From Harmothoe impar (taxonomy: Eukaryota > Annelida > Polychaeta > Phyllodocida > Polynoidae), in contig OX381718.1 of NCBI GenBank assembly GCA_947462335.1, positions 43,648,281 through 43,712,280 of the forward strand: a stretch of 64,000 bases of DNA. Reading direction: 5' to 3'. Every line of letters begins with the position of its first letter. Position 1 is the first letter of the stretch. The notes under the pieces are model-generated. The model was given only the letters and a program-made list of their open reading frames with translations, was not told the DNA's origin and ran no database searches. The position numbers and the translations under genes are program-made. Below, piece after piece: positions 19,914-41,829 of the stretch.

Positions 19914-20354
19914 AGTAGTATAGTATGTATCGGAACGGGACTATAGTTAACTACTGTTTATTACTCAATCAACATGCAGCCAATCAGAGGCCTCCATTTG
20001 GTCACGTGACCCGTTGCCATGGTAACGTGACCTACTTAGGGCTCTCAGCCAATCAGAAGCCAGCATTCTGGGTGACCTACTGACCTACTTAGAAGCTCTC
20101 AGCCAATCAGAGGCTGGCATTCTGGTAACCATGGTAACGTGACCTACTTACGTCACGTGACCTACTTAGGCTCAGCCAATCAGAAGCCGGCATTCTGGTA
20201 ACTAGGGTAACGTGACCTACTTAGGGTTTGTTTGTAAACAACACCACGTGGCTCTCTTGTTTGTAAACAACACCACGTGACACGTGACTGTTTGTAAACA
20301 AACAAACAAAGAAAAAGTTATGTAACTTATATATAGAAATAAAAACACAACAAG
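19914..20354 (+). repeat. E1 left TIR
   Basis: It pairs with 30,027-30,447 at high identity, with a small insertion near the inner end. The outermost 98 bp match the E2 terminus with two mismatches. The interior holds about three 60-bp direct repeats, each with CAGCCAATCAGA (NF-Y type), GCATTCTGGTAAC and ACGTGACCTACTTAGG. TTTGTAAACAACACCACGTG blocks (FOX-like plus E-box) follow. Confidence 0.95.
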
Positions 20355-20416
20355 ATAATTTCTTTTCTTTTCATTTTATTCTTTATTTTCATTTCAATCA
20401 GAAAAAACACACAAGT

Positions 20417-20716
20417 TTATGCTTTTTTAGCTTGCTTCTTCGATTTGCAGCAACTCAACAGGCCGCAAAGTCTCACGCCGCCGTCACTCGCACCACCACA
20501 CCCCGGACGACTTCTCTCCAATAGACATTGCACGACTTTGGATAAATCCAACACCATTTCGGCAAGGCAGAGAATCTTTGCCTCCATGAAACGGCCGCCA
20601 TCGCAACAACCCGTCACAACAGCATCATCGATAGCTTCTGACTCACGGCCCGGTCGCTCAGCTTTGGGATTTTGCTCATGCGCATGACGCACTTCTTGGG
20701 GTTTCTTGTTCGACAT
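20417..20716 (-). CDS. small E1 protein, unknown (99 aa)
   Basis: This is the last leftward frame before the left TIR. It starts at a clear ATG and overlaps the protease 3' end by about 100 bp in another frame. The N-terminus is charged. Residues 46-70 form a likely amphipathic or hydrophobic helix (AKILCLAEMVLDLSKVVQCL), and the C-terminus ends in a Cys pair followed by a Lys-rich tail. Membrane association is possible but not shown. I do not recognise a family. The terminal position, intact frame and nearby TTTATT (AATAAA on the coding strand) support a real gene. Confidence 0.5.
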   Translation of the reverse strand: MSNKKPQEVRHAHEQNPKAERPGRESEAIDDAVVTGCCDGGRFMEAKILCLAEMVLDLSKVVQCLLERSRPGCGGASDGGVRLCGLLSCCKSKKQAKKA

Positions 20717-21066
20717 GCTTCCATTAGGAAATTAACGCAATGAGGTCCACAGGTGTCAGCAGAAGTGTCTTGTAGTTGAATGCGGTTTCTTTGCCACTTG
20801 AACGGAGCAGAGCGTTCCACGAAAGACAAGAACTCCGCACTCAGCGGCGGTAAGCCGAAGGAATCAAAGTAGTACACTTCACCCGTGCTCGACACGTAAA
20901 ACGCCACCCAATGCTGACCTGGTAAATGTTGCGGATCTGTGTTGCTCACGAAACAAGTGTCTTTGATAGGGTGCTTCGGAATAGTGTCACAAGAGAAAAC
21001 GCCCAGGAAACGATGTTTTGTGTGAACGTTTTCCTTCAACACTCTGCTTATTTCAAGCGTGTTCAT
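20614..21066 (-). CDS. adenain-like cysteine protease
   Basis: A maturation protease of the adenovirus/Ulp1 (C5/C48) type, expected to cleave capsid and core precursors inside the particle. Numbered from the ATG at 21,064-21,066 (150 aa), the conserved residues are His52 in GQHWVAFYV, Asp68 in YYFDSFG, Gln99 and Cys106 in TCGPHC. The spacing of seven between Gln and Cys equals that known for adenain. The frame is open further upstream, but that part lies inside the hexon gene and begins with non-family sequence, so I chose this ATG. It lies 29 nt behind the hexon stop. Confidence 0.9.
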   Translation of the reverse strand: MNTLEISRVLKENVHTKHRFLGVFSCDTIPKHPIKDTCFVSNTDPQHLPGQHWVAFYVSSTGEVYYFDSFGLPPLSAEFLSFVERSAPFKWQRNRIQLQDTSADTCGPHCVNFLMEACRTRNPKKCVMRMSKIPKLSDRAVSQKLSMMLL

Positions 21067-21095
21067 ACGATACGCCAAGTACCGCCGTCTTGTCT

Positions 21096-22403
21096 TCAGT
21101 TCATGTGGTAGTCGGTGATGGGGTGTCGATCTCGGGTCAGCTCGACGACGTTGTCGTACACCAAGTAGAGTAGCACCGTTGTTGTCGCTTGTAGCGCCGA
21201 GCGGAAACTGACTTCCACCCTCAGCTGACCCGCTCTTATAAGGTTCACGCGACACCCGTCGTGCGATCTGTCTGGGGTTAAGTCGAGGGGGAACACCGTG
21301 TAACCGTTCAGGAATTGATCGTATGAAATACCGCAGGAGCGCGCGCCCTCGTACATCCCCGTTTCCGTGTGTAGCGCCAAGTACTCTCTCACGGCCGCTT
21401 TGGTCTTAAAGTCGGGCACGTAGGCGTCGTTCGGCACTTTCTGATCGTTCACTATCACTTGAAGCGAGCTGATGTCGTAATGCTTCATCTCGAACGGGTT
21501 CTTGGTGTAGCTACCGTTGAAGGCGTCGTGGTCCAGGAAGCAAATCATCATCGACTTGGGAAGCTGGCCTGTGTTGGAGTGCGTGTAGCTGTGATCTCTG
21601 TTACCTTGAGGGATGGCGTACGTCGTCACCTCCACTCTGTTCACCGGGTAGTCGAAGGGCCCGTGTTCTATCACCGCTCTCTCGTGCGTTTCCGCTACAG
21701 CGTCCGCCACCAGCACGCGTCGCACGTAGAGCTTTGCTTTGTAGATCTTCAAGCTGTAGCCTCCGTCAGCGGCGCACATCAGATAGAAAGAGGGCGCCGC
21801 CTGTTTCAGAGTGAGATTGATTTCTGTCTCTCCAACGATGAGCTTCGGTTGATGAGCCAGGTCAAAGTGCAGTCGCGCCATCAGCGAAAAGCGCTTGTTG
21901 GAGATTAGCTTCTTGCGCGCTTTGTACCCCGCATTCGCGTCAGTCAACGTGTCAAACTGACCGGGCGTATCTTCATGCCACCCCTGGGCGCTCATGACGC
22001 CGTCCTTCACGTCTTTGTTGTAGTTGAGTAACCCTTCCAAGTAAGCTCGGTAAGGGTAGGTCTCGGTGTTGCCAGACACTTTGAAACCGCCGATGGAGAC
22101 TTGGACGTCTTTGAAGAGCGAGTGAGCCAAGTTGTTCACCGGAGCTACCGCGTCGGTGTCCTCGATCGCCGCTCCGTTCGCTTTCAGCACTTGACATTCC
22201 AGATGAAGGTAATTCTCGTTCAGGTCTGTGTACTCTTGCGACTTGTTGATGGTGAAATTTATGTTACCTCCATCCTCTAAAGAGTTTTTTGTTTCTATCC
22301 CCAGGAAAGACGACTTTAAGATAGTAGTCTGAGTCGGCGCTACGGTGGGCAGGTCGAGCTCAGAGAGCGCGCACTCGTTACTGCTCTCGTGTACGTAAGC
22401 CAT
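21096..22403 (-). CDS. major capsid protein (hexon, double jelly-roll)
   Basis: A 435-residue protein of Polinton hexon type. The conserved block at residues 89-129 includes VNNLAHSLFKDV and YPYRAYLEGLLNYN, a signature I know from Polinton/adintovirus hexons. It forms the pseudo-hexagonal capsid lattice. The ATG at 22,403 sits about 50 nt downstream of a TATAAATAAAAAG box. No breaks were seen. Neighbours are the pX-like gene upstream and the protease downstream, the usual morphogenesis order. Confidence 0.92.
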   Translation of the reverse strand: MAYVHESSNECALSELDLPTVAPTQTTILKSSFLGIETKNSLEDGGNINFTINKSQEYTDLNENYLHLECQVLKANGAAIEDTDAVAPVNNLAHSLFKDVQVSIGGFKVSGNTETYPYRAYLEGLLNYNKDVKDGVMSAQGWHEDTPGQFDTLTDANAGYKARKKLISNKRFSLMARLHFDLAHQPKLIVGETEINLTLKQAAPSFYLMCAADGGYSLKIYKAKLYVRRVLVADAVAETHERAVIEHGPFDYPVNRVEVTTYAIPQGNRDHSYTHSNTGQLPKSMMICFLDHDAFNGSYTKNPFEMKHYDISSLQVIVNDQKVPNDAYVPDFKTKAAVREYLALHTETGMYEGARSCGISYDQFLNGYTVFPLDLTPDRSHDGCRVNLIRAGQLRVEVSFRSALQATTTVLLYLVYDNVVELTRDRHPITDYHMN

Positions 22404-22452
22404 TGTGTTCTCTCTTCACGCGGCCGACAGACTGACGCCGGCCGCCTCCAGT

Positions 22453-22466
22453 CTTTTTATTTATAC
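22453..22466 (-). promoter_or_regulatory. combined TATA box and poly(A) signal before hexon
   Basis: On the coding strand the sequence reads GTATAAATAAAAAG in the only sizeable gap (79 bp) of the structural cluster. TATAAATA is placed to serve the hexon ATG about 50 nt downstream. The embedded AATAAA could end the upstream pX-like transcript. Confidence 0.5.
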
Positions 22467-22482
22467 CTGAACGCCTAGGCGC

Positions 22483-22908
22483 TTACCGGTCGAATACATC
22501 CCCTCTACGTCTCTTGCAAGAGCCACCGCCCGTCTGAGCAGAATGCCGGCGACGTTTCGACCCTTTCTTAGACGCGACAGTCGTCTTTCCTCCCGAGAAC
22601 GCCGTACTCGCCAGTCTCTTCAGAGCGCCTGCGCCTCGGTCTTTCACGCTGCTCTTTAAAGTCCGACCCGCCAGCACATCTTTAGCTACGCCCACACCGG
22701 CGCGGAGCAGCGTTTTTCCCACCGACTTCAATAGCGGGGTAGCCGAGCGCATCAGACCTAACAGAGCGCCGCCCAAACCGTGCCCGCTCTGGAAAGAGCG
22801 CCCGCTGTACACGTTGACGCCGTTGCCCAGCTGCGCGTTGTAGTAATCGCTGTACCCTCTGCCGACGGTGCGCCTGGGTGGAAAGTACGGAACGCGTTGA
22901 CGCATCAT
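22483..22908 (-). CDS. pX/core-protein-like basic virion protein (141 aa)
   Basis: The start is an ATGATG pair. A Gly-rich segment at residues 43-52 (GHGLGGALLG) leads into a long amphipathic helix with TPLLKSVGKTLLRAG and VAKDVLAGRTLK. The tail is strongly basic (SKKGSKRRR, CKRRRGD). This pattern matches the short core or pX-like protein between penton and hexon in other Polintons. It probably binds DNA or lyses membranes inside the virion. The start lies 11 nt from the penton stop. Confidence 0.8.
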   Translation of the reverse strand: MMRQRVPYFPPRRTVGRGYSDYYNAQLGNGVNVYSGRSFQSGHGLGGALLGLMRSATPLLKSVGKTLLRAGVGVAKDVLAGRTLKSSVKDRGAGALKRLASTAFSGGKTTVASKKGSKRRRHSAQTGGGSCKRRRGDVFDR

Positions 22909-22919
22909 TTTTCTCTCTT

Positions 22920-24038
22920 TCAGCGCTCAATAGGTCTCAGATGAAGTGTCACGGTCACCTCGCCTCTACCGAATGGGATGGAATGACCGGATCGGTCTCT
23001 TAAATAGATGCCGAACTCGGTAAACCTCTTGGATTTCAAGGGGAAATAATCCAAATGGGGAAAACTGATAGCTTGCACGCCACCTCGACGCTTTCCGCCT
23101 CTGTCCACCGCGACGCAGCGCAACAGCGGCACTTGCATGTCACCCACACGTCTCTCCTGGATCATGTCGGTGTATATGTACACAGAGTGCACGTCCCCGT
23201 AAACATCCATCGAGTAGGCGCCGGTAGTCGGCGACGCGAAACACGTCTTCTCTCCGAAGCCTAGAACGCATGCGAGATGCTGACTCAGCAGGACAGCACA
23301 GTGTCTCGGCGGTTTGATGGTGACGCGTTTCGTCTTGGCGTCGTACGATAAGATCCGCATCGGTTTGAGCAAGAAGCTGTCGCCCTCTAGTCTGTCATCT
23401 CGCAACGTCTCACTCAAGCGCTCGATTAGGGTGTGGTTGCTTCCGGTGAAAATAGGAGGTATCTCGAATATGTTTGGCATGAAACTGCGCACTCCCATGT
23501 CTTTCTCCATCTCTTCGATCATCTGTCTTGCTTGATCGCTGATCGCCTTCTTCTTCACCGCCGGGGACAAGAACTGCTTGTATACGGCATTCGTCTGTCT
23601 CAAGTCGACCTCTCTCTTGAACCTTTTTGTTTCCGGTTTCAATTGCTGCTCTTCCGACGTGTCTGATATCTCTTCCACCGTTACATAGCTCGCTTCCTTC
23701 CAGCTCAGCGGGAATTTTGAGCTGAACGTTAGCTTGCTCAGACCGTTCGCGTTTTTCATTCCCCTCCAGTCTACCTGTGGTTTTTTTCCTTCGGCGAATT
23801 TAGTTTCTTTTAAAACCTGGATCGCCTCCTCTAGCGAACCCTTGGTGCGCAGAGGAACAACGATGATCAAGTCGTCGTCGTGCACGTTAGTCCATTCTGT
23901 AGGGAGGATGATCTCAGTCAGAGCCGCTTCGTACGCTTCGGGCAGAAGGAGCGGCGAGTCGAAGTGAGTTCGGAAAGACGTCAAGCTGTTGTCAGGATAA
24001 TACTCCATAGAGCTGTTGCTAGGTAGAGTGATGTTCAT
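22920..24038 (-). CDS. penton / minor capsid protein (single jelly-roll)
   Basis: A 372-residue protein opening with TLPSNSSMEYYPDNSLTSFR and continuing to AALTEIILPTEWTNV. This N-terminal signature is typical of Polinton minor capsid proteins that occupy the vertices. The middle (about residues 100-190) is less conserved and charged. The ATG follows directly on an 18-base A tract on the coding strand. The frame is intact. Confidence 0.9.
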   Translation of the reverse strand: MNITLPSNSSMEYYPDNSLTSFRTHFDSPLLLPEAYEAALTEIILPTEWTNVHDDDLIIVVPLRTKGSLEEAIQVLKETKFAEGKKPQVDWRGMKNANGLSKLTFSSKFPLSWKEASYVTVEEISDTSEEQQLKPETKRFKREVDLRQTNAVYKQFLSPAVKKKAISDQARQMIEEMEKDMGVRSFMPNIFEIPPIFTGSNHTLIERLSETLRDDRLEGDSFLLKPMRILSYDAKTKRVTIKPPRHCAVLLSQHLACVLGFGEKTCFASPTTGAYSMDVYGDVHSVYIYTDMIQERRVGDMQVPLLRCVAVDRGGKRRGGVQAISFPHLDYFPLKSKRFTEFGIYLRDRSGHSIPFGRGEVTVTLHLRPIER

Positions 24039-24056
24039 TTTTTTTTTTTTTTTTTC

Positions 24057-25193
24057 CTACGTTATTTTTTTGACGGGGATCCACTCGTTGAACTTGTCGT
24101 CGTAACCTAACCAACGTACGAAAGCTAACTCTTTACCGTCGACGGTCTTGCGGCGCAACACCTCGTCTATCAGGTAGTTGTTGTCGTAACGACTCTTGTA
24201 CACCTTCTGAACCTCTTCCGGGTAGAAGACGCCTTTTATCTCCTCGCCCTTGTCGTCTTTCAGCTCGAACCCTCTGCTTCCCAACGTCTTAGCAACGTCG
24301 ACCACTTCCTCGCGCCAGTTTCCCTCGTACCCTTTGTCGAAGGCGCCTTTAGTTCTCAACATCCTCACTCTGTCACCCGGAGCGATGACGTCGACGGCGG
24401 ACGTCTTTGTTTTTTTCTTCTTTTTCCATATTTCGTCGATTTGTTTGTTAGTTGGGAGATCTTGTCGGTAGAAAACTGTTTCGCTGTTTTCCGAGCTGAC
24501 TTGAGCCGGCGCCATTTTCAACGTCTTGTGGTGAGTGCGATTGTAAGAAGACACTACATGGTGCAGTACGTCTACGTAGCGATACGTGCGCTTGTGTGTG
24601 AAATAACGCCACAGCTTCTCCTTCAGACTGCGGTTCAAGCGCTCCATTAGACTAGCTTTGATGTCGTCGTTCTCGCCAGTGAAGAACTCTATGCCCTCGC
24701 TCTTCAAGTGATCTTGAAAGATCTTGTTCAAAAACTCTTTCCCCTTGTCTGTCTGAACAGTGCGCGGTTGTCTCTCGCCAGTGCCTGTCATCTCTCGGAA
24801 GGCCTCGGTGACATCAGCGCCGCTCTTGGATTTAATGGGAACGGCCCACGCGTACCTAGAGAAAACGTCGATCGCCGTCACCACGTACCGGAAGCGGTCG
24901 TTGTGAGACGCCAAAGCTTGCATGTCCATCAGATCTATCTGCCACTGCTGATCGATTGGGCCGGTTATAGTCTTGTTCCTTGCGAATTTTCTCCGAATGG
25001 GTTTATGTTTAGTGTAGGCGTCCAGCGACACTAAAGCATCTCGGATGACGGCCGGGTTCAGGTGGCGAAAATGATGTTTCTGGAGTTTAGTCACGCTAGT
25101 GAAACTGGAGGGCGCTTTGACGTCGGTATATCTAGCTACTACGCGCTTCTTTTCTTTTTCCTTCTTGGTCAGTCTCTTCACTGGTTTGCCCAT
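24057..25193 (-). CDS. retroviral-type integrase with C-terminal chromodomain
   Basis: It integrates the provirus and generates the 6-bp duplications. Domains in order: a basic N-terminus, an rve core at about residues 80-200 with the catalytic triad Asp87 (QIDLMD), Asp149 (VQTDKGKEF) and Glu184 (LMERLNRSLKE), and a C-terminal chromodomain at about 338-378 (LIDEVLRRK, VRWLGYDDKFNEWIP). Asp149 to Glu184 keeps the D,D(34-35)E spacing. The ATG has a strong Kozak context (CCCACCATGGGC). This is the only integrase in either element, so E2 would have to use it in trans. Confidence 0.95.
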   Translation of the reverse strand: MGKPVKRLTKKEKEKKRVVARYTDVKAPSSFTSVTKLQKHHFRHLNPAVIRDALVSLDAYTKHKPIRRKFARNKTITGPIDQQWQIDLMDMQALASHNDRFRYVVTAIDVFSRYAWAVPIKSKSGADVTEAFREMTGTGERQPRTVQTDKGKEFLNKIFQDHLKSEGIEFFTGENDDIKASLMERLNRSLKEKLWRYFTHKRTYRYVDVLHHVVSSYNRTHHKTLKMAPAQVSSENSETVFYRQDLPTNKQIDEIWKKKKKTKTSAVDVIAPGDRVRMLRTKGAFDKGYEGNWREEVVDVAKTLGSRGFELKDDKGEEIKGVFYPEEVQKVYKSRYDNNYLIDEVLRRKTVDGKELAFVRWLGYDDKFNEWIPVKKIT

Positions 25194-25414
25194 GGTGGGC
25201 CTGTTGAGGGCGTGAACGACGAGCTCGCCGCTAGGCGGTTGCGCCCTTTCCTTTTCTTACTCGCCACGCTCCTATAGGAAGTCGGAGTTTGGAAAAGTTC
25301 ACTGTCGTCCTCCTCGTCGTCAGAGGATTGATCGTCCACCTGGAGAGAAGAGTCTGCTGCTGCTACTGCTGCTGCTGCTGCTGCTGCTTCTCCTTCTTCC
25401 GAGTCGAAGCTCGG
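25178..25414 (-). other. open in-frame extension behind the TGA of the 315-codon gene
   Basis: After the TGA at 25,415-25,417 the same frame stays open for 78 codons to a TGA at 25,178. It encodes an Ala run, an acidic segment (SSDDEEDDSELFQTP) and a basic segment (SKKRKGRNR). The end overlaps the integrase start. The composition looks like a real protein tail, so the TGA is either a recent nonsense change or a readthrough stop. Confidence 0.5.
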
Positions 25415-26362
25415 TCATTTCCGACCTCTGTCAGCAAGCCGTGTGTCCAAACTTCGGCCAGGTCCGCTCGCTTTATACAGATGGTTTCCGATCAAGGAGT
25501 CTGTGGGAACTGCTTCGCGCAGCGCTTTCGTGAACGGCGAGTAGCCCGCCGGTCTGGGCGCCGTCTTCCTGAACCTGGCAGCGTCGTTCAGTAAGTCCAC
25601 TATGTTGATGCGATGCTCAGGTGGTATTCTCCGACCCGACATCTCGCGCACCGCACCGTCCTCGTTCCACTTGATCACACCGGATTTCTCCAATTGTTTG
25701 TACAGCGCCACGGTCCGGGTGCGATTCCTCTTGGGAACTTGGTTCGCCAACCGCTCGAGTAGGGACGCGCTGGCCTCTTCAGCAGACTGACGGAGGTGAG
25801 CCGGGGGCGAAGAAGAGTAGGACGAAGAGATGTTGCTGTTGTGGGGATTCGCGAGAAAAAATTGCAATCTATTCAACAACCTTCGGTATTTCAACATTTT
25901 CTCGCGCGATTCCAAAGTGGGGTCGTTCAACACTAAATCCAAGTCCCTGTAGATAAACTGTAGCACCTGGTGCAAGGCCGCGTCGGGATGAAGGGACTGT
26001 TCTGCCTGCTTGTGGTAATAGGCCATGTCGGCAGGTAGGCGGGCGGCGGTGGCAGGAGCGGAACTCTCGTTCTTTTCAGTGCGCTCATCAGGAAGAGGAG
26101 GAAGGTTTGGAGCAGTAGAAGTACTAGCAGCAGCGACTGCAGTAGTAGCAGCGCTAGTAGTAGCAGCAGCAGCGGGCACATGATGAAGTAGACCTGCTCG
26201 TGATGATTTGTAGAGCGTCTCAGGATCCACGAGCGCTAAGCGTTTGTAGTGTTGTTGCTGCTCTGAGTCCGTCATGGGGACGACGGTGGCAATGACGCTG
26301 GTGGTGGCGGTAGTGGTGGTGGTGGTGCTGTCGGCGAGTAGGTGACGAATGAGGTGTCTCAT
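25415..26362 (-). CDS. conserved-position Polinton protein, function unknown (315 aa)
   Basis: The ATG overlaps the stop of the preceding gene (ATGA). The N-terminal third is Thr/Ala-rich low complexity around an ALVDPETLYKS motif. A middle helix-rich part includes LESREKMLKYRRLLNRLQFF, and a folded-looking C-terminal part (about 215-300) includes NIVDLLNDAARF and DSLIGNHLY. Placement between the ATPase block and integrase, plus the LDPE-like motif, resembles a recurrent Polinton protein of unknown role. The assignment is tentative. An open extension follows the stop codon. Confidence 0.65.
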   Translation of the reverse strand: MRHLIRHLLADSTTTTTTATTSVIATVVPMTDSEQQQHYKRLALVDPETLYKSSRAGLLHHVPAAAATTSAATTAVAAASTSTAPNLPPLPDERTEKNESSAPATAARLPADMAYYHKQAEQSLHPDAALHQVLQFIYRDLDLVLNDPTLESREKMLKYRRLLNRLQFFLANPHNSNISSSYSSSPPAHLRQSAEEASASLLERLANQVPKRNRTRTVALYKQLEKSGVIKWNEDGAVREMSGRRIPPEHRINIVDLLNDAARFRKTAPRPAGYSPFTKALREAVPTDSLIGNHLYKASGPGRSLDTRLADRGRK

Positions 26363-26691: not shown

Positions 26692-26697
26692 TTTTTG

Positions 26698-28680: not shown

Positions 28681-28699
28681 GGAGCGGCGAGTCTGACAT

Positions 28700-29231: not shown

Positions 29232-29276
<45 letters not shown>

Positions 29277-32684: not shown

Positions 32685-32715
<31 letters not shown>

Positions 32716-32944: not shown

Positions 32945-35900
32945 TCATATCTCTAAAGGACTCGTTGTCACACCGTCAGAATGCACGCGACGCTTATAAT
33001 ACAAGTAGCGCACGCCGTCTTTCTCTATGGTGTAGGTGACCATTTTGTTTCGCACCACTTTGAAATTTCTATTTACAGCAATGAGAGTTTTTCGTTGGCG
33101 AAGAACATCCAAGAAGTCGTCTGGTTCCTTAGGGTTTTGTTTCTTCTGTACGCCTTTTGCACTCCATTTTTTGGATTTTCTTTCACCGGTGTCGCTGACT
33201 CGATCGTAGCAAATGTAAGTCTTAGGGTTGAGACTTAGGATCCCGTCACCTTCCCACTCCGCTTTCATAAGCCCCGAAGTTCTCAGATCGTGAAGGTACC
33301 GTCTCTCACAACATCCGCCGGGCGGCGGACACCATTCTCGCACTCTTTCCGTTTTTGTCTTCACGAAAAGCTCTAAGTGATCGTCGCACACCGCTGTCGG
33401 AAGCCACTTTCGTTTCTCTCTGAAGTACGTCTCTCTCAGGCGAGGTTTGACCAGGTCATCCAACGTGTCACCGCTGAGAGCCATGTAAAGACTGTCGGTG
33501 TCCATTTGACAAAGGGCATAATCGCGCCGATCGACGAATCTATCCAAGAAGTCGTATGTGAACTCTAACATTTTCAACTTCGCGTACTGGTATACCATGA
33601 ACCCTATTTGAATAGGGAGGTTGTTCTTGACTGTTTTCGGTTGTAGTTCGACTTCAAACAGATCGGAACTCAACTCGGACGCCTTTTCGAAGCGCCACGA
33701 ATTGGCCAATAGTTCGAACTTCCGACTGTCAGTGTATCTCACCGCCGTGTGTTTTTCTTTGTTGCAGATTGTTTTACCGTACGTAGCGTTTCCCATTAAC
33801 TTGTAACAGTCTGACAGAATTTTCTCGTTCTCGTTCACGTTGCCACGTCTTCGCGCCGCCGTTACTTCGTCCGCGAAACCGGCAAAGGAGCGTTTAGGTA
33901 GGTATTCTACGACCAGCTGCACTTTGGTGACTATCAAACCGTGCTCTAAATACCACTTGAGAAGCGGCGTTCCCAAGAGAATATTTTTTCCGTGGTAACT
34001 CCCTATCAGACATCTCTGAGGCGTGTTCAACAGCTTTTCTTCCTGCGCAAAGTCTGACATGTGAGGTCCTATGTCCGATTTTGAAACGGTCACGTTCTTG
34101 AAAACGGGGGTCATTTCTTCGAAGTAGTCTCGTAGGTGAGGCGGCGTAGTGATGTCCACTTGAACTAAACCGAACATTTTCTCCTCTTTCACAGCGGAAA
34201 GGATGTCGCTCTTGCTCATCGCGTTTCGAGACACTTTCAAAGCGTCAACCTTCCAGCGTTGTTGGGAGGCCTTAACCCGCTCATCTCGACGCTTCATCTC
34301 TCTCCATTCGCACTCCCACACGACGACCAGCTTGTGACCTAGCGCTTTCAAGTAAGCGCTTACTCTAGTCGTTCTGTCGCGTCTCTCCTCCCTCAGTGAA
34401 GCGCACTGATATCGGTGCGACGGTATGCACTCGTGAGCGTGGAACCAACACCCGTGAAACTGGAAAACCGTATTAGAGGCCGTGTGAAACCCGTCCACGC
34501 GAATTCTCTGACAGCCTACAACCATCTCGCCGCCGTTCAAAGCGTGGCGCAGTTTCACGTCGCGGTCGTGCTCTACGAAGCGTAACCACTCCAAAGCGCT
34601 GTGAGAGTTTCTTTGCCTAATTTCGGGCTTGAACTCGGTCTCAGGTCGTCTCACCGCGTAATAGCCCGTGCAGTGCGCTTCGCTCATGCAGCGCAAGTAC
34701 AGAGAGTTAGCGTCTAGTCCTAGGATGTGTTGGCACGGTCTCGCTTCTTCGCCGTACTTGTGCTCCCTTATCCGCGTGGTGCCCTTCTCGTGAAATCTAT
34801 GGAAGATGATGGAAGGACCGCCGACTAGATTTTCTTTGATCAGAGCGTGGAGGACGGCGTCGAACTGGGGGAACGTTGTGAACGCGTCTTCTATGTTTTG
34901 GAAGAGGAACCGTAAAGTCAAACCGGCGAGAGAAACTCCGTCTTTCAACATGTCAATGCCGCGATCTGGGAAAAATTTAGCATGATTTTTCAGAGCTTCT
35001 ATGAAAGGTTTGACGTCTTTGTTGTTGTAGTGGATCAAGTAATCTTCCATAGTTTGCATCTTCTCGTCGGACCAAACTTTCTGACATGCGGCGTAGTCGG
35101 ATTCGGACATTTTGACGCCCGTCAGTTCGCTGTCAAAAGCCGATCTCGGTGGCAGCGTTCTGTTTGCCAGTTTCCTGGTAGACGTCATCCATTCGTAAGG
35201 AAAGTGACCTTTCTCTTCGTTCCTGGTGAAAGCTCGCAAATAGGTCGCGTAGTTGTAACCGGGTGCCAAATAGTTGACTACATCCAAGAAAACCGTGTGC
35301 TGTGTGTAAACCGCCAAGTATTGATTGCTTCTCTTTATGACGCTGAATTCTTGGTTTCTTCGGTCTCCGGAGGCAAAGAACGAGTGAAGGCGTATTTTGA
35401 TCAGGTTCAAGTCGTAACGCCCCGAGTTGAAGCCCACGACTGGAGCTTGACGGATGTATCTCAGAAGACGCTTCTTCAGTTGAACTAACGGGTGTCTGGT
35501 CTGAGCCGCAGCGAAGCCGCCTGGAGAAGGGGTGAATGTCGCCTCCTCCAGCAGGAGAGCTTCACCTATCGCCGCATCTAACTTCGCTAACGTCGGTCGG
35601 TAAAGTTCTAGCACAGCTTCCCCGATGACTTTGGCGTTCTCGTTTATGTGATTTAAAACTCGGTCCAACAAGGGGTCGGAATCTGCGTCGGATTCTCTGA
35701 CGAAGCAGACGGGCCCCTCCCACCCCGGAAAGTCGGATGCGACGCTAGCCGACAAAGGGACGTGATCCCACAGCAGGGACACGTGTTCCGTCGACGGTTC
35801 TTTGCACGGTCTGAAGAAAGCCTCGAAACCGAAGGGGATCTTGTAAGGGTAGATTCCGGAATGTCCGTCGGGGGGAAAAATGGAGAAGTCTGCTAGCGCT

Positions 35901-36310
35901 TCGAAAATCGTTCTCGAATTTTGGTAGATGCCACCTACGTAGCGCAACTTGACTTGTCGGCAAGAGGAAAGCTGGTTCCTGTGTCTCTTCAGCAAGAACT
36001 CGGTGGTGAACGCCGCCTTACACTTGCAACATTCGTATATGCCCGCGTACGCGTTGAAGTCCGTGACGAGAGAGACGTGCAAACCGCCTTTCGCCGTCAG
36101 GTGTAGGTTGACTTTACCTCGGGCGGCCAGAGTTCTGGAAGGCGGTCTGATCAGAGTAACGCGTCTTCTCAACTTCCGCCCCGGCACTTGACTCGACGCG
36201 GTGTAAACCACTATTTGTACGTCAAACAAGTTCTCTAACGCGGGTAAGTCGCGGATGTTCAGACCCGGAAAGGATTCAGGTGTGGCAGCGGGACAGAACT
36301 GACGTAACAA
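32945..36310 (-). CDS. family B DNA polymerase, main frame (protein-primed type)
   Basis: Replicates the element. Counting from codon TTG at 36,310 (about 1,121 residues): a C2HC-type finger at 93-117 (ECCKCKAAF ... H110, C117), Exo II FNSGRYD at 294-300, Exo III YNNKDVKPF at 428-436, Pol A GLDANSLYL at 531-539, FHGCWFHAHEC at 618-628, Pol B KLMGNATYGK at 837-846 and Pol C QMDTDSLY at 935-942. Catalytic residues are intact. No ATG exists between the upstream in-frame TAG (near 36,390) and TTG 36,310, so this frame cannot start itself. It continues the 36,276-37,067 frame after a one-nucleotide offset. Confidence 0.93.
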   Translation of the reverse strand: MLRQFCPAATPESFPGLNIRDLPALENLFDVQIVVYTASSQVPGRKLRRRVTLIRPPSRTLAARGKVNLHLTAKGGLHVSLVTDFNAYAGIYECCKCKAAFTTEFLLKRHRNQLSSCRQVKLRYVGGIYQNSRTIFEALADFSIFPPDGHSGIYPYKIPFGFEAFFRPCKEPSTEHVSLLWDHVPLSASVASDFPGWEGPVCFVRESDADSDPLLDRVLNHINENAKVIGEAVLELYRPTLAKLDAAIGEALLLEEATFTPSPGGFAAAQTRHPLVQLKKRLLRYIRQAPVVGFNSGRYDLNLIKIRLHSFFASGDRRNQEFSVIKRSNQYLAVYTQHTVFLDVVNYLAPGYNYATYLRAFTRNEEKGHFPYEWMTSTRKLANRTLPPRSAFDSELTGVKMSESDYAACQKVWSDEKMQTMEDYLIHYNNKDVKPFIEALKNHAKFFPDRGIDMLKDGVSLAGLTLRFLFQNIEDAFTTFPQFDAVLHALIKENLVGGPSIIFHRFHEKGTTRIREHKYGEEARPCQHILGLDANSLYLRCMSEAHCTGYYAVRRPETEFKPEIRQRNSHSALEWLRFVEHDRDVKLRHALNGGEMVVGCQRIRVDGFHTASNTVFQFHGCWFHAHECIPSHRYQCASLREERRDRTTRVSAYLKALGHKLVVVWECEWREMKRRDERVKASQQRWKVDALKVSRNAMSKSDILSAVKEEKMFGLVQVDITTPPHLRDYFEEMTPVFKNVTVSKSDIGPHMSDFAQEEKLLNTPQRCLIGSYHGKNILLGTPLLKWYLEHGLIVTKVQLVVEYLPKRSFAGFADEVTAARRRGNVNENEKILSDCYKLMGNATYGKTICNKEKHTAVRYTDSRKFELLANSWRFEKASELSSDLFEVELQPKTVKNNLPIQIGFMVYQYAKLKMLEFTYDFLDRFVDRRDYALCQMDTDSLYMALSGDTLDDLVKPRLRETYFREKRKWLPTAVCDDHLELFVKTKTERVREWCPPPGGCCERRYLHDLRTSGLMKAEWEGDGILSLNPKTYICYDRVSDTGERKSKKWSAKGVQKKQNPKEPDDFLDVLRQRKTLIAVNRNFKVVRNKMVTYTIEKDGVRYLYYKRRVHSDGVTTSPLEI

Positions 36311-37067
36311 ATCTGAAGCGCGCTTGCTGGTGTTGTATAAGTGAAAGGAAATGCAGCCGGATGCAGAGGTTGTCCTTGTTGGGAAAATCTAACACGCCGC
36401 TTCTCTTTCCAACTCGACCGGCCTGAGTGATCCTACCGCCTATGGGGAATTCCCCCGGTCCCATGTAAACGCAAATGTTCAAATTGGTAGGAAAAAGAAC
36501 GTGCCACTTGGTGTCAGCGTCGCAAAGTTTCCGTACTTTCTCGCAAGCGACGGTGTTTTCCATCTTTGAGAGGAGCTCTTCCAAAGTTTCTGAATTAGTT
36601 ATAGTAGGGAGCGGTTGTATGAGAGTTGCGTTGTTCTGGGAGGCGTGAAAGTAGCGCAGTTTGCTCTTGTCTTCTCTGTGTTGTAAGAGTAAGCCTACCG
36701 AGAAACCCACTTTGTATCTGAATCTTTGTGTCAAGTGAATGCGACGCATAGTATCTACAGCGTCACTCAACTCTCCGGTTGGTAGCCTGAAGTTTGTTAC
36801 ACTCACGCGAGTCCCGTGCATCCTGACGCCCGTTTGTATCGCAGGCCAATTCGCCGTGAACGTTTCCTCCCCGTTCGGTACAGCACATATGCGCGGAGGG
36901 ATGGTCACCCCGTCCAGAGATTCGCGTTGACAGGCGATCTTTCGGCAATCGCCTTCGCCGCATAGAGGGCAAAACTTAGGTATTACTCTACAATTTTCTA
37001 TGTGTCTCTCGTGGTTGTACGGTCTTTTAAACATTTTGAAACACTTTTCGCATACGTACTGCGTCAT
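36276..37067 (-). CDS. N-terminal part of the polymerase with zinc finger, separate frame (263 codons)
   Basis: It starts at an ATG behind an A tract. A C2HC finger (YVCEKCFKMFKRPYNHERH) at residues 4-22 is followed by further CxxC pairs (CPLCGEGDC) and a KDNLC motif near residue 230, just before the frame is lost. These elements belong at the N-terminus of Polinton-type PolB proteins. The polymerase frame overlaps its last ~35 nt, and the likely frame change lies at about 36,351-36,368. The residues after that point look out of frame. Treat as the 5' part of the same gene. Confidence 0.8.
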   Translation of the reverse strand: MTQYVCEKCFKMFKRPYNHERHIENCRVIPKFCPLCGEGDCRKIACQRESLDGVTIPPRICAVPNGEETFTANWPAIQTGVRMHGTRVSVTNFRLPTGELSDAVDTMRRIHLTQRFRYKVGFSVGLLLQHREDKSKLRYFHASQNNATLIQPLPTITNSETLEELLSKMENTVACEKVRKLCDADTKWHVLFPTNLNICVYMGPGEFPIGGRITQAGRVGKRSGVLDFPNKDNLCIRLHFLSLIQHQQARFRFVTSVLSRCHT

Positions 37068-37084
37068 GTTTTTTCACTCAGTTA

Positions 37085-37205
37085 CCAACTACTTAGCCGT
37101 CTAACTATCTATCTATCTATCAATCTATCTGTCTATCTATCTATCAATCTATCTGTCTATCTATCTATCTGTCTGCTGTCTGTGTATCCGTCTGTCTGTC
37201 TCATA
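37085..37205. repeat. (TCTA)n/(TCTG)n microsatellite
   Basis: A tetranucleotide tract in the 190-bp gap between the polymerase and the PC4-like gene. Confidence 0.9.
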
Positions 37206-37255
37206 CAGCGTACGTCAAACGCTGTGTGTGTGCGCGCGTGAGCGTTGAGCGTCTC

Positions 37256-38866
37256 TCATTCCGAATCTATACCGAGAAATTTGAGAATAATCTCTGTTTT
37301 GTCATCCAACTCTTTGAGCGCTCTGGCGGACAGCGTCACCCCCTGCTGTGTGGGTTTTTTGTCACGACCTTCGTACTTGCGCACGTGGAAGAGGTTCTTA
37401 CCGCTGTAGTAGCTCACAGCTGCGTACACTTCGCCCTCCTCATCCAGCACTGCGAACCAGGGGGTGTGATTAGGTCTTCCTTGCGCGGCCGCTGTGTCGC
37501 GTATGCGCACCACTGCGCGGATATCGGCGATGCGTGCTATTAGCTCGCGCAGCGCGTCGGCAGTGAAGTGCACTCGCTTGCTTCTGGTCAGAGACGCCTC
37601 TTTCACCTGGCCGTCTTTTGTGTAGCGCGGCCTCCTAGACAGTCTAGCCACGTCCTCCCAGATCTCCAGCGTCAAAGCCCCGTCTAAGCAGAACTCTAAC
37701 CCGAGAAGACGGGAGAAGGTTTTCTCTGCTTCTTCTCGTCCATCTCGTTCTTTTTCTTGTATTTTTCTCTTCTTAGTAGGCCTTGTTGTTCTGGAACTCA
37801 CCTTAGAACGTTTCAGACCCGCAAGAAGAGTAACACCATCAGCGTGAGCTGAATCAGCAGCAGAACCGATAACAGGAGCAGCGTCAGCGCTGGTGGTATC
37901 CGAGACCTCGTTGTTGGAACAGAGCAGCCACACGCCGTCGGTGCTGAGTGTAGCGGTAGAAGATGAAGCGCCGCCGCCCTCGTAAGGTGGCGGTGAGGGC
38001 AGTCGCCACGGACCGGACGCGCTACCAGTGGAAGTGAGGTCGAAAGCTGGGGAAGAGGGGAGCCGAAAAAACGTACCGTCCGCCCCTTTCCCTTCGGGTT
38101 CTTCGTATGCCTCATCGTCAGCGTCGTTCTCTGTCTCACCCTGTTGCTGCTGCTCCTCCTCCTCTTCTTCTTGGTTTAGGGGCTGAGTGTCCGAATAGCT
38201 GTAACTCTCAGCGCGAGCGGCGTCGAGGGCGTCGGTCGATGTAGTGGTGGAGAGGGGCTGTGCAACGTGCGGCAGGTCATCAAAATCATCAACAGTAGTG
38301 GGGAGGTAAAAACCCGGTTGCCAGTACTGCGCTGTGCCAGGAGCGTTGTCGTCAGTAGTAGTAGCGGTAGCAGCAGGTGCAGCAGAAGCAGCAGCAGCAG
38401 CAGCAGCAGACGCAACAGTAGCAGGCGCAGCAGCCTCAGCAGGCGCAGCCGTAGCAGGCGCAGCAGTAGCAGGTGCAGCAGCAGCAGCAGCAGCAGCGGC
38501 AGCACGAGGATCACCAGCAGCAGCAGCAGCAGCAGCAGGCGGGGCGGCAGTAGCAGCGGCAGCGCGCTTAGCAGCAACGTGTACCGTCGCGAGTGTAACA
38601 ACGTCGCTAGCACGACGACTACTACCAGTAGTACTACTACCACTACTTCTACTACTACTACTACTACTACTACTTCTATTACTACTACTACTGCTGCGAG
38701 CGCTCGCTACAGCGGGAGGGTGATAAGACCAAGCGGCTGCGGCGGTAGTCTCATTTTCAGTAGCAAGAGGAGGCACTGACGCTAAACGAGCGCTGTTCCG
38801 CGTAGTCTTCTTGTTCTTGAACTTGCTTAGATCCTTGGACGGCGCTAGGTGTTGTCTTTTGCTCAT
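37256..38866 (-). CDS. Ala/Ser-rich protein with two apparent PC4-like ssDNA-binding domains (536 aa)
   Basis: The start is the Kozak ATG (CACCATGAGC) at 38,866; the longer frame begins only with TTG. Residues 40-370 are low complexity: Ser/Arg, long Ala tracts, then Glu/Gln. The C-terminal ~150 residues look folded. Two units (about 390-454 and 470-532) each resemble the PC4/Sub1 core: a V.YYSGK strand, an IRKY-like strand, a short KDGQ or DKKP turn, then a GVTLSARALKEL helix. PC4 folds bind single-stranded DNA, so a replication or late-transcription SSB role is plausible beside a protein-primed polymerase. This is an assignment by eye. Confidence 0.6.
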   Translation of the reverse strand: MSKRQHLAPSKDLSKFKNKKTTRNSARLASVPPLATENETTAAAAWSYHPPAVASARSSSSSNRSSSSSSSSRSSGSSTTGSSRRASDVVTLATVHVAAKRAAAATAAPPAAAAAAAGDPRAAAAAAAAAAPATAAPATAAPAEAAAPATVASAAAAAAASAAPAATATTTDDNAPGTAQYWQPGFYLPTTVDDFDDLPHVAQPLSTTTSTDALDAARAESYSYSDTQPLNQEEEEEEQQQQGETENDADDEAYEEPEGKGADGTFFRLPSSPAFDLTSTGSASGPWRLPSPPPYEGGGASSSTATLSTDGVWLLCSNNEVSDTTSADAAPVIGSAADSAHADGVTLLAGLKRSKVSSRTTRPTKKRKIQEKERDGREEAEKTFSRLLGLEFCLDGALTLEIWEDVARLSRRPRYTKDGQVKEASLTRSKRVHFTADALRELIARIADIRAVVRIRDTAAAQGRPNHTPWFAVLDEEGEVYAAVSYYSGKNLFHVRKYEGRDKKPTQQGVTLSARALKELDDKTEIILKFLGIDSE

Positions 38867-38934
38867 GGTGGTGACTGTAGAGAGCAGCAAAAGAATGAGT
38901 GAGTGAATGGAGGTTTCCAGACCCCTTATATACG

Positions 38935-38942
38935 CCTTCTCG
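38935..38942 (-). promoter_or_regulatory. TATA box for E2 leftward genes
   Basis: TATATAAG on the minus strand, about 70 nt upstream of the PC4-like ATG. Confidence 0.5.
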
Positions 38943-38994
38943 CTTCTAGAGCTAAGCTACTTACTGCCCCTGTTCAGCTGCCGCCGGCTGGCCG

Positions 38995-39520
38995 GCGGCC
39001 ATTCACAAAGAGAAACAAAAGACATAAGGCATGACGTTTTCAGCTGGATCCCTTTCCCCCCTTTTGAGAGATCGACTGTCATGAGCTAAGCTACTTACCA
39101 CCCTGTTCAGCAATTCAACGCGCATTAGCTGTATAAAGGATTAAGCGGTTGCTGCCGCCGACTGACCGGCGGCCATTCACAAAGAGAAACAAAAGACATA
39201 AGGTATGACGTTTTCAGCTGGATCCCTTTCCCCTCTTTTTTGAGGGATCCACTGTCATGAGCTAAGCTACTTACCACCCTGTTCAGCAATTCAACGCGCA
39301 TTAGCTGTATAAAGGATTAACGGTGATGAGCTTAGAGTGTGTATACAAAAAAACTACAGGAGGCGTGTGGCGTGAAGCAGGACCCCCTAAGACGAACGTG
39401 TCTGTCTGTGAGTAGAGGCGTGTGCATGTGGTGAGCGACTTAAGTGTAAGACAAAAAAAAATCACCGCCTCCTGCCGTGGTGAGTAGACCGGGCCGGCCG
39501 GCGGCGGCCGGCTAGTTCAA
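38995..39520. promoter_or_regulatory. E2 copy of the common control region, with a 174-bp internal duplication
   Basis: Homologous to 28,700-29,100 of E1 in block order and sequence. In E2 the part from AAAGAGAAACAAAAGACATA (39,007) to TGTATAAAGGATTAA is present twice (second copy from 39,181). It separates the leftward PC4-like gene from the rightward death-domain gene, exactly as in E1. Confidence 0.85.
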
Positions 39521-39810
39521 TAGGGAGGGGTGACAGCTGACTAAGGCTGTGCATGAAAAAATCCGATTTTCACCTGACCTCTGACGTTTGTTACAATGAA
39601 TGTCAGAGGGAGGGAGACGTCCTCAGGTAGGGGGTAGGAGGTAAGGCTATGGATGAGGAAAAAACACCGTTTTCAGCTGGTCTCCACGGATAGCGATGAC
39701 ATACCCCTCGTCATCTAAGCTCTTAAGGAGCGGAGCGGCTGAAAAAGCGTCATGCGGACAGGTCGCTAGACAGCTGGAGTGCTGTTGGAAATAGGATTAA
39801 ACTCCCTCTG

Positions 39811-39818
39811 TATAAAAG
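39811..39818 (+). promoter_or_regulatory. TATA box for E2 rightward gene
   Basis: TATAAAAG about 100 nt before the death-domain ATG. An (ACC/GCC)n leader lies in between, like that of the E1 rightward gene. Confidence 0.55.
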
Positions 39819-39916
39819 CTCTGATTTCTGTTGGAAAAAAACCATATCGCCTCTGACCACAGTAACGTCTACTACCACCACCACCGCCACCACCGCCGCC
39901 GCCAAGACGAGACGAG

Positions 39917-40657
39917 ATGGCTCAAGCTATTCCACTTTCAAGCTCGCCTTCACCGCCTTGTCCACCTGAAAAAAAGTTAATGCGGCTTGACGACGTGAGA
40001 CGCGCGAGGCAGACCGATGGGGAAAACAGAGAGGTAGGACAGCGGCGCTTAGCATATAGCGACGCCTTGCTTCGTCAACTAGGTAAAGAGTTGAGCGGAT
40101 CTTGGAGAGAGTTGGGCAGTAGCTTAAAAGTTACCGCCGTCCGTATGGATGCTCTAGTAGAGCGCAGTGTCAAGACACCGGAGGAGCTGTGTACGGCGAT
40201 GTTCCGAGTCTGGTGGGGTGAAACCCCGCATCGTCATAGATGGGGAGAGCTCGGTCGCGTCTTCACCCGCATTAGACGCGTGGAACTGTTGGCTCAGTGG
40301 ATGTCCCTTCTCCACAGACAGGGGTTGGATTTCGAAAACCCAGACTCGCGCGCGATGCATAAGCACTTGGGCACCCTCGGCAGACGTCTAGGTAGCAGGT
40401 GGAAAGAGGTGGGGGACCATTTAAAATTGTCGCCTGAGAGGTTAGATAAGATCGCTGAAGAATGCGAATACGGAGGAAGTCCCGCTGAGTGGGCCTTCCG
40501 AGTGTTGAAAATGTGGCAAGCTGAAGCTGACGGTGCCGGCGGTACGCCTTTTGAACTCCTTCGAGTGTTGACTGAGGACATGGGAAAGTTTGACCTCGGC
40601 ATCGCGATATTACTTGACTTTATCAAGCAAGAAACAACGAGAACGACGGACATGTGA
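39917..40657 (+). CDS. tandem death-domain protein (246 aa)
   Basis: Two death-fold units: about residues 48-132 (LGKELSGSWRELGSSLKVT, core Trp63) and 148-236 (LGRRLGSRWKEVGDHLKLS, core Trp162), each followed by a MFRVWW or VLKMW helix. Death domains assemble apoptosis and innate-immune signalling complexes. A soluble two-domain protein without catalytic parts could act as a decoy or adaptor against host signalling; that role is inferred. The stop codon lies at the inner border of the right TIR. Host capture is likely. Confidence 0.8.
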   Translation: MAQAIPLSSSPSPPCPPEKKLMRLDDVRRARQTDGENREVGQRRLAYSDALLRQLGKELSGSWRELGSSLKVTAVRMDALVERSVKTPEELCTAMFRVWWGETPHRHRWGELGRVFTRIRRVELLAQWMSLLHRQGLDFENPDSRAMHKHLGTLGRRLGSRWKEVGDHLKLSPERLDKIAEECEYGGSPAEWAFRVLKMWQAEADGAGGTPFELLRVLTEDMGKFDLGIAILLDFIKQETTRTTDM

Positions 40658-41354
40658 ATTGTTGTGTTTTATTTTCATACGTCTTCTTTATTAGTAAGTA
40701 AAAAAAAATATTATAACAATTAAGACGCGTGTCCTCTTAAAGTGTCACTTCCTCCAGTCGCAGCTGATCGCCTCATCGAGGCTTGTGATAAACAAAAAAA
40801 AATGAAGAGACACGCTTCTTCCTCTCGAGAGGAAGAAGCGTGTCTCTCGATTGAAATCTTTTCTTTTCTTTTTTTCTTAAAAGAGACAAACGCCCCTTAG
40901 AGTGCCCCCCCATACCCCTAGAGTGCCCCCCTCCCCCCTCCCCCCCCTCCCCCCCCCACCCGCCCCATGCATCCTAAAAGCGCCCCCCTCCCCATGCATC
41001 TTAAAGGGGCCCCCCTCCCCCCTCCCCTCCCCTCCCCTCCCCTCCCCTCCCCTCCCCCCTTATACACTCTAAAGAACGCTTCTACCTAGTTCGATAAGTC
41101 ACTTCCAGTCGCTCGTAAAACAATAAAAATGAAAAAACAAACTTATATCGTAGTGTTTTTTATTAGTTTACCGAAAAAAATAAGAGACTCGCCTCCTCCT
41201 CCTTCTCCTCCTCCTCTCCTTCTCCTCCTCCTCCTCCTCTCCTTATCCTCCTCCTCCTCCTCCTCCTCCTCCTCCTCCTCCTCCAAAAAATATCACATTT
41301 TAAAGCGCGTGACCCCTTAAAGACGCTCATCTCTTCATTAAGTCGCGTGACGTC

Positions 41355-41385
<31 letters not shown>

Positions 41386-41829
41386 CTTCTTCTTCTTCTT
41401 CTTCTTCTTCTTCTTCTTCTTCTTCTTCTTCCGGTCACGTGATCAATCAGGTCACTTCCGGTCACGTGATCCTCAATGAGGTCACTCACTTCCGGTTGGC
41501 CATTAGGTCATGTGACGTCACTTCCGGTCACGTGACTCATCAGGTCACTTCCGGTCACGTGATCCTAAATTAAGTCATATGACGTCACTTCCGGTCCCCT
41601 AAGTAGGTCATATGATGTCACTTCCGGTCCATAAGTAGGTCATATGACGTCACTTCCGGTCACGTGACCAAATGGCGGCCTCTGATTGGCTAACTAGGTC
41701 ACGTGACATCACCACTAATCCCCTAAGTAGGTCACTTCCGGTCACGTGACCAAATGGAGGCCTCTGATTGGCGATTGAGTAATAAACAGTAGTTAACCAT
41801 AGTCCCGTTCCGATACATACTATACTACT
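40658..41829 (-). repeat. E2 right TIR
   Basis: The inverted partner of the left TIR. The CTT tract is about 28 units here against about 17 GAA units on the left. A 9-bp deletion lies near the outer end, and the inner part (40,700-40,900) is unique to this side. Confidence 0.9.
40806..40847. repeat. 42-bp perfect palindrome inside the E2 right end
   Basis: Arms of 21 bp (AGAGACACGCTTCTTCCTCT, then C) meet without a loop at TCGA. It follows the death-domain gene and is absent from the left TIR. It may act as a bidirectional terminator, a hairpin or an origin element. Confidence 0.85.

Follow-up and report, generated by a model that had tools for sequence, protein, structure and literature searches.

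We analyzed a 64,000-nucleotide stretch of the Harmothoe impar genome (assembly GCA_947462335.1, contig OX381718.1, positions 43,648,281 to 43,712,280), called the window below and numbered from its first letter, and identified two integrated elements, E1 and E2, that have common ends and between which the core genes of a Polinton are divided. E1 carries the integrase and predicted virion genes and E2 carries the DNA polymerase. Elements of both kinds recurred as discrete classes among 41 elements sampled from the same genome, which was the check that an earlier note, made from the sequence of the window, had suggested for its proposal of a 'bipartite' Polinton. We consider it very probable that the two classes function as one split (multipartite) Polinton, and neither kind is likely to manage without the other. 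The proposed division of the core genes over two classes held; a third class, E3, has the same ends, and 'bipartite' therefore describes the core genes and not the number of classes. The layout of the two elements, in base pairs (bp), was as follows.

19914..30447, no strand: E1, virion-and-integrase element, 10,534 bp, paired ends and 6-bp duplication
19914..20305, plus strand: E1 left terminal inverted repeat, outer 100 bp common to E2
30055..30447, minus strand: E1 right terminal inverted repeat, by sequence comparison
30448..31751, no strand: spacer, other DNA, 1,304 bp, part of which recurs at 53249-53473
31752..41829, no strand: E2, polymerase element, 10,078 bp, paired ends and 6-bp duplication
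31752..32635, plus strand: E2 left terminal inverted repeat, contains a microsatellite
40956..41829, minus strand: E2 right terminal inverted repeat, by sequence comparison

The 20-base terminus AGTAGTATAGTATGTATCGG had four exact matches in the window, at positions 19914, 30447, 31752 and 41829, against 0.01 expected. These are the ends that the earlier note had assigned to two elements with complete inverted repeats and perfect duplications of their own, and our reading confirmed them. Read directly, E1 is flanked on both sides by TATGTG and E2 on both sides by GAGATC, each a perfect 6-bp duplication. Since each element has its own, different duplication, E1 and E2 were inserted separately, and the idea of a single element broken in two was rejected, in agreement with the earlier note. 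An assembly artefact was likewise rejected because the perfect duplications differ between elements and copies are many. The two elements have the same orientation with 1,304 bp between them; this spacing was considered as a hint of joint insertion and dropped, since 4 of the 40 neighbour gaps in the sample described below are under 5 kilobases (kb), making it unremarkable. The E1 inverted repeats (~393 bp) had 6 mismatches in 392 positions, and those of E2 (~880 bp) differed at 5 of 844 aligned positions, with a further 70 gap columns where microsatellites occur (Fisher p 0.11 for the mismatch counts). A GAA/AAG-type microsatellite was present in both E2 repeats (32158-32370 and 41198-41407) and may explain the spread of E2 lengths.

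The genes that define the two sets are given below, with lengths in amino acids (aa), expectation values (E) and open reading frames (ORFs).

20614..21255, minus strand: E1 adenain-like cysteine protease, of uncertain start, its ORF overlapping that of the capsid
21096..22403, minus strand: E1 major capsid protein, predicted double jelly roll, 435 aa, from homologues and the model of a relative
24057..25193, minus strand: E1 RVE integrase with weak chromodomain, 378 aa, rve E 2.3e-13 (above the Pfam cut-off)
26698..27444, minus strand: E1 packaging ATPase of IVa2/A32 type, Adeno_IVa2 24.9 bits against a cut-off of 21
32945..36355, minus strand: E2 family B DNA polymerase, larger part, corresponding to residues 239-1375 of homologue P0001, DNA_pol_B_2 (Pfam)
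36360..37067, minus strand: E2 family B DNA polymerase, N-terminal 236 residues, in a frame differing from that of the larger part
37256..38890, minus strand: E2 544-aa ORF with C-terminal PC4-like stretch, PC4 E 0.00032, 20.6 bits against a cut-off of 25
39917..40657, plus strand: E2 Death-domain protein, 246 aa, Death E 1.1e-07 (Pfam)

In E1, the integrase had 304 homologues, and its chromodomain match was below the cut-off. The ATPase also matched PF00910 (RNA_helicase, 22.0 bits against a cut-off of 21.5) at a score below that of Adeno_IVa2, which we read as a probable P-loop cross-match. The protease matched Peptidase_C5 with E 0.00025 at 21.2 bits, 0.1 bit under the cut-off of 21.3. The 435-aa protein had no match in Pfam or in a sequence search of solved structures. 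It had 37 homologues, including a close relative, P0121, that is 95% identical and whose structure model, built from 19 sequences with a predicted local distance difference test score (pLDDT) of 83, was a double jelly roll. The fold of this model matched double-jelly-roll capsid proteins from PBCV-1, a grouper iridovirus, Sputnik and mavirus, and further a protein from a bracovirus record (28% identity), so that the E1 protein is predicted from the model to be a capsid protein of this type. The gene set that the earlier note gave to E1 was therefore borne out for integrase, ATPase, capsid ('hexon') and a protease-like protein, while its 'penton' and 'pX-like' genes stay putative, with no convincing Pfam match.

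The E2 polymerase of the window lies in two frames relative to the 1375-aa homologue P0001, with a single frame change at 36355-36360, indicating that this copy is damaged. The profile of 22 polymerase homologues had a Vsr-like insertion, positions 841-923 of which matched Vsr structures (E 1.5e-06); Pfam Vsr was matched by 8 of the 22 homologues and not by the window's own polymerase piece, and a search of solved structures with the polymerase gave Vsr matches together with weak zinc-finger matches. The 544-aa ORF is possibly a single-stranded DNA-binding protein, judging by its PC4-like stretch. To assess complementarity, we searched ORFs of at least 25 aa with profiles of the polymerase, capsid and integrase and with eight other proteins as single sequences (phmmer), covering 262 ORFs in E1, 227 in E2, 512 in the left flank, 32 in the spacer and 540 in the right flank. 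No trace of the polymerase was found in the 262 ORFs of E1, as the earlier note had maintained, and none of the capsid, the integrase or six other E1 proteins in the 227 ORFs of E2. Neither flanks nor spacer held any of these modules, every match (E up to 0.5) being the gene's own place. The content claimed for E2, a family B polymerase and no integrase or virion gene, was thus retained, with the correction that the polymerase is frame-broken in this copy.

E1 and E2 had common DNA at their ends and at two internal places, as follows.

28701..29066, no strand: E1 internal control region, TATA motif at 28878, 74% to E2 over 221 columns
38973..39505, no strand: E2 control region, TATA motifs at 39132 and 39308, counterpart of that of E1, with internal tandem duplication
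20337..20418, no strand: E1 AT-rich 3' block with AATAAA motifs at the 3' end of the minus-strand gene row, ~74% to E2 32826-32898
32826..32898, no strand: E2 counterpart of the E1 3' block, ~74%

The outer 100 bp of the left ends of E1 and E2 agreed at 97 of 100 positions, as did E1's own two ends; the E2 right end had 8 bases missing. Further inward the match fell to 5-14 of 20 per block (0 of 19 in the last block). The control regions agreed at 164 of 221 columns, with a local score of 145 against a shuffle maximum of 30. The common termini and control region described in the earlier note were borne out. A 175-bp tandem duplication (38977-39324, 95%) was seen in the E2 control region, so that E2 has the promoter-like block twice where E1 has it once. 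Control region and 3' block sit at matching places in the two elements. Because the internal blocks are only ~74% similar and the ends near-identical, E1 and E2 appear to come from common ancestors that have long been separated while their ends were held together. The split is therefore old, since internal common DNA differs by about one quarter.

We then surveyed the host genome (1,511,831,793 bases in 736 contigs) for the terminus with at most one mismatch. This search identified 7,198 forward and 7,229 reverse sites, 14,427 in all, against 1 and 0 for the control; if ends pair, the genome holds roughly 7,000 elements. The first 100 listed ends, all exact and on contig C1 up to 4.96 Mb, gave 41 paired elements and left 18 ends unpaired. 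Eleven elements measured 10,419-10,557 bp and 28 measured 8,728-9,881 bp, with single elements of 13,245 and 15,926 bp. Gene content was assigned by comparing 2.3-kb pieces from the middle of 39 elements, and separate pieces of the two long ones, with 12 query pieces of window proteins and with one another. All 11 elements of the long class carried the E1 integrase at 92-99%, and they were the same 11 elements in which integrase-motif sites fell within a pair. The short class comprised 11 E2, 2 E2-derived and 15 E3 elements. The 11 E2 elements (8,967-9,747 bp) had polymerase and/or PC4-region matches of 93-99%, and polymerase was confined in the sample to the class of 8.7-9.9 kb. In the pieces examined, none of the 41 elements held both modules. 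Paired elements of 17-20 kb numbered 0 of 41 in the C1 sample; the picture that the earlier note had named as contrary to its proposal, mostly 18-20 kb elements with polymerase and capsid together, was likewise seen in 0 of 41.

Flanks of 10 elements (3 E1, 3 E2 and 4 E3) showed perfect 6-bp duplications in all 10 cases, every one of a different sequence. The outer 100 bp agreed across copies at 97-99 for E1 with E2, 97-99 for E1 with E3a, 95-98 for E2 with E3a, 90-92 for the other classes with E3b, and 97-100 within classes. Two E3-E2 neighbour pairs of near-equal lengths were noted at C1:987894-1008600 and C1:1027412-1048133, with spacers of 1,822 and 1,887 bp; they are perhaps a duplicated host stretch.

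Motif counts over the whole genome (at most two mismatches, controls 0) were 775 and 799 for the integrase (1,574), 763 and 756 for the capsid (1,519), and 1,256 and 1,244 for the polymerase (2,500). On contig C1, an integrase site lay within 3 kb of 74 of the 76 listed capsid sites. All 28 polymerase sites of C1 (24 exact motif sites and 4 from the protein search) were more than 10 kb away from every listed integrase or capsid site, the nearest at a distance of 12,574 bp. We also scored the best 109 of 7,980 integrase candidates and the best 41 of 7,243 polymerase candidates, which are best-scoring copies and not a random sample. All 109 integrases were in stop-free 399-aa frames, and 37 of the 41 polymerases were in frames of at least 1,354 aa, one with an internal stop; the window copy was one of the 4 shorter ones.

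The 15 E3 elements (8,728-9,822 bp) matched neither the E1 nor the E2 set but one another, in at least two subgroups. Their middle pieces (n=15; for example L011, L015, L017, L024, L034 and L040 on C1, from elements of 8.7-9.8 kb) held no ATG-started ORF above 117 aa, and no core Polinton gene was found in the pieces examined. In side pieces from other copies an open stretch of 149 aa was seen, and also an alanine-rich ORF that measured 218-314 aa or more. The DNA of this ORF was 66-71% similar to a low-complexity ORF of E1 (29196-29939), and E3 matched the E1 control region at 84% over 56-57 bp in 2 of 8 side pieces and more weakly, 79% over 57 bp, in 2 more. These resemblances make E3 a gene-poor relative and not an unrelated element; two E3 ORFs that were scanned matched no Pfam family at its cut-off. 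The 13,245- and 15,926-bp elements were E3 by their outer pieces. The former holds a reverse-transcriptase ORF and the latter other, internally repeated DNA, and both look like E3 with inserts, judged from their pieces. The two E2-derived elements (C1:785032-794817, 9,786 bp, and C1:2884121-2894001, 9,881 bp; L014, L035, L061 and L062) had polymerase remnants and a Death-domain gene, which is joined to an alanine-rich ORF; they also carry a 330-380-aa ORF.

Relatives in public assemblies were 76% and 66% identical for the polymerase and 71-81% for the integrase, among the matches listed. The tables comprised 120 of 458 polymerase rows, 120 of 304 integrase rows and all 37 capsid hits. Among the matches listed, the polymerase and integrase tables shared exactly three contig sizes (17,632, 16,628 and 12,657 bp), where chance gave 0.33 on average and 5 at most in 2,000 trials. 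The relatives on these contigs were 47-51% identical, and in a polymerase tree of 23 chosen rows of the 120 they belonged to the group that is sister to the E2 clade (98/98). The equal sizes and the sister group suggest that one-piece relatives likely exist outside, and that these three contigs likely mark them. Capsid and integrase tables shared the sizes 3,306 and 4,673 among the matches listed. Congruence of the polymerase and integrase trees was initially claimed and was withdrawn after a second integrase tree and an approximately unbiased (AU) test.

Polymerase and integrase contigs of the next clade out (P0007-P0029; P0171-P0193) shared no size among the matches listed. The split might be wider than this family and reach that clade, a reading that clustering at 90% makes weak. 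Public contigs of ~10 kb (integrase 99% on 10,510 bp; polymerase 98% on 9,882 bp and 66% on 9,859 bp) were considered as free molecules; the idea was dropped because collapsed repeats of thousands of copies would give the same. Of the closest listed clusters, 14 of 17 were on contigs under 4.3 kb. The remote polymerase P0113 (35%) on a 10,509-bp contig, one base from 10,510, was taken as coincidence. IMG/VR, scanned with single proteins and alignments, gave no confirmed relative; six of its contigs matched an 18-base piece of the terminus and were taken as chance, seven window proteins reaching a best E of 0.14 in the parts compared.

The sample of 41 is best read as a split Polinton of complementary parts that has spread to some 7,000 places in the genome, with no complete master in sight. 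From the sequences we infer that the classes help one another in trans, that replication is protein-primed and starts at the common ends, and that packaging is shared. The polymerase for copying all classes would come from E2-type elements, the E1-type integrase would insert every class with a 6-bp stagger, and the E1 capsid, protease and packaging motor (ATPase) would package all classes. As to origin, sister copies of a one-piece ancestor may have lost opposite halves and kept the ends, the promoter region and the 3' block, after which both lineages would have spread together; E3 would have lost both halves, and may ride along or serve some other role. Three classes of different content keep to 8.7-10.6 kb, which fits a packaging size limit; the 9-10 kb of E3 is unexplained unless packaging sets size.

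Several observations weigh against this reading. The 41 elements represent 5 Mb of 1.5 Gb, so a rare complete copy could lie elsewhere, and their gene content rests on middle pieces and not on whole elements. The 18 of 100 ends without a partner belong here, as do 3 of the 14 listed integrase sites of the sampled stretch, which lie outside any pair. Integrase sites are fewer than polymerase sites genome-wide (1,574 vs 2,500), and E3 (15 elements and the two with inserts) outnumbers E1 and E2 each. Equal contig size is indirect proof of polymerase-integrase linkage in the relatives, and no capsid hit of the 37 lies on a contig of any of the three shared sizes. The E1 clade takes two different positions in the integrase trees (p-AU 0.264). 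Given the ambiguous integrase trees and the missing capsid hits, E1 and E2 need not share one ancestor.

Whether the split Polinton is also a living virus is a separate matter. We put at about even the chances that it is a multipartite virus of the double-jelly-roll lineage with at least two, perhaps three, linear double-stranded DNA (dsDNA) segments of 9-10.6 kb and common ends. One segment would then serve virion and integration and another replication and host control, with E3 as a third segment or a packaged satellite; the capsid would hold all segments to one size, and the system would have settled in roughly 7,000 genome places. A rival on transmission, which is compatible with the split Polinton and is judged on its own scale, holds that the family is now only an intracellular transposon system with no infectious particle. 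Thousands of copies in one genome do suggest much movement inside the host lineage; however, capsid and integrase sites are near-equal in number, sizes stay within 8.7-10.6 kb save in the two elements with inserts, as a packaging limit predicts, and relatives 66-81% identical occur in other public assemblies, so that we regard this as possible and rather unlikely.

A different explanation of the classes themselves is that E1, E2 and E3 are deletion derivatives that depend for movement on a complete one-piece master acting in trans, rare in this genome or lost from it. Polintons do lose modules, elements without capsid, protease and ATPase together being described by Krupovic et al. (PMC4028283; this and the other papers are cited from part of their text), E3 is an example of module-poor elements spreading within the family, and only 41 elements were examined. 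On the other hand, none of the 41 was complete, every C1 polymerase site was more than 10 kb from the listed E1 gene sites, and frames were kept open in all 109 integrases and 37 of the best 41 polymerases scored (one with a stop). The age of the split, with internal DNA about one quarter different while the ends agree, argues in the same direction, and we consider this origin very improbable. Also very improbable is an unequal partnership in which an E1 virus borrows an unrelated Polinton or host polymerase, an E2 satellite that has a polymerase of its own steals integrase and capsid, and E3 is a satellite of both: virophages do depend on a helper and E2 carries only replication- and host-type genes, but E1 has no trace of a polymerase, E1 and E2 are both numerous, and the common ends, control region and 3' block point to one ancestor.

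The remaining ORFs of E1 were as follows.

22483..22908, minus strand: 141-aa basic/hydrophobic ORF, no Pfam match, which we take to be a possible minor virion protein (putative)
22920..24038, minus strand: 372-aa ORF, putative 'penton' of the earlier note, no Pfam match
25415..26362, minus strand: 315-aa ORF, by ORF only
26359..26691, minus strand: 110-aa ORF with hydrophobic tail, putative 'pX-like', no convincing Pfam match
29196-29939: low-complexity ORF, DNA resembles the E3 alanine-rich ORF

The structure model of the 'penton' ORF was unusable (pLDDT 32). In the flanks, window 4698-4826 matched the E1 protease query weakly (35% over 43 aa, E 0.004) without a phmmer match, and is possibly a host cysteine protease or a chance similarity. 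Three copies of a host gene with exons were present at 50935-62255, presumably a short-chain dehydrogenase by motif. An 18-bp tandem array occurred at 45354-46144, with palindromic units of the TATTGACAGTTC/GAACTGTCAATA type on its flanks at a spacing of 41 bp (44933-46660).

Many RNA viruses have divided genomes, and such genomes are rare among dsDNA viruses. If the family is indeed a multipartite virus, it would be the first Polinton known in divided form and would show, beside the bidnaviruses, a second way from Polintons to segmented viruses. The bidnavirus story, in which one of two segments carries a Polinton polymerase, would gain an independent parallel. A Polinton in the split state, with thousands of copies and likely one-piece relatives, would make the origin of segmentation testable: which cis elements every part must keep, how parts are held together, whether capsid room favours a split, and how gene-poor passengers exploit it.

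The likeness to Polinton/Maverick elements is broad. Both window elements and all 10 others checked have (AGT)n-type inverted-repeat ends and 6-bp duplications, and vertebrate Mavericks have AGTAGT ends and 6-bp duplications (PMC8097293). E1 has the RVE integrase, the IVa2-type ATPase, the C5-type protease (0.1 bit under its cut-off) and the predicted double-jelly-roll capsid, all absent from E2; E2 has a family B polymerase, by its sequence probably of the protein-primed type, which is absent from E1. A Vsr-like insertion in PolB is a mark of group I Mavericks (PMC10328495), and we assign the family to group I because of its ends, duplications, genes and this insertion. Polintons are described as single units of 15-20 kb (PMC4028283), and intact vertebrate Mavericks have seven or eight conserved genes together (PMC8097293); in contrast, polymerase and integrase in one 15-20 kb element were met in 0 of 41 elements here, and the gene set is divided over classes of ~10.5 and 9-10 kb. 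By title or start of abstract, no divided Polinton was found among the open-licence papers searched, nor was one described in the parts seen of PMC11071296, PMC11071308, PMC12721341, PMC6431247, PMC4061559, PMC8363768, PMC8097293, PMC4028283, PMC10328495, PMC12220804, PMC12567637 and PMC11521997; PMC11071296 mentions segmented parvoviruses of the bidna class and no segmented Polintons.

Adintoviruses resemble the family in that their linear dsDNA, found in animals, encodes PolB, integrase and virion proteins of adenovirus-like type; they are reported as single genomes, three Drosophila-associated ones measuring 13.3-14.6 kb (PMC8363768). Common ends let the enzymes of one element move another (PMC6431247), and E3 looks like such a passenger, as in autonomous/non-autonomous transposon families. 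Unlike those families, no class was found with the whole enzyme set, and the autonomous role is itself divided. Bidnaviridae (Bombyx mori bidensovirus) and Vesanto virus likewise have a Polinton-type PolB on one segment of a divided genome with similar segment ends (PMC4061559, PMC8363768). Their parvovirus-type capsid, superfamily 3 (SF3) helicase and small single-stranded DNA segments are without match here, no parvovirus family appearing in Pfam scans of the window proteins, whereas the present elements have an integrase, a double-jelly-roll capsid (by model) and integrated copies with target duplications. The second bidnavirus segment has been proposed to derive from the first with gene exchange, and the origin that we propose for E1 and E2 resembles this. 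As in a multipartite system, the elements described here form discrete, recurring classes with the core genes divided between them.

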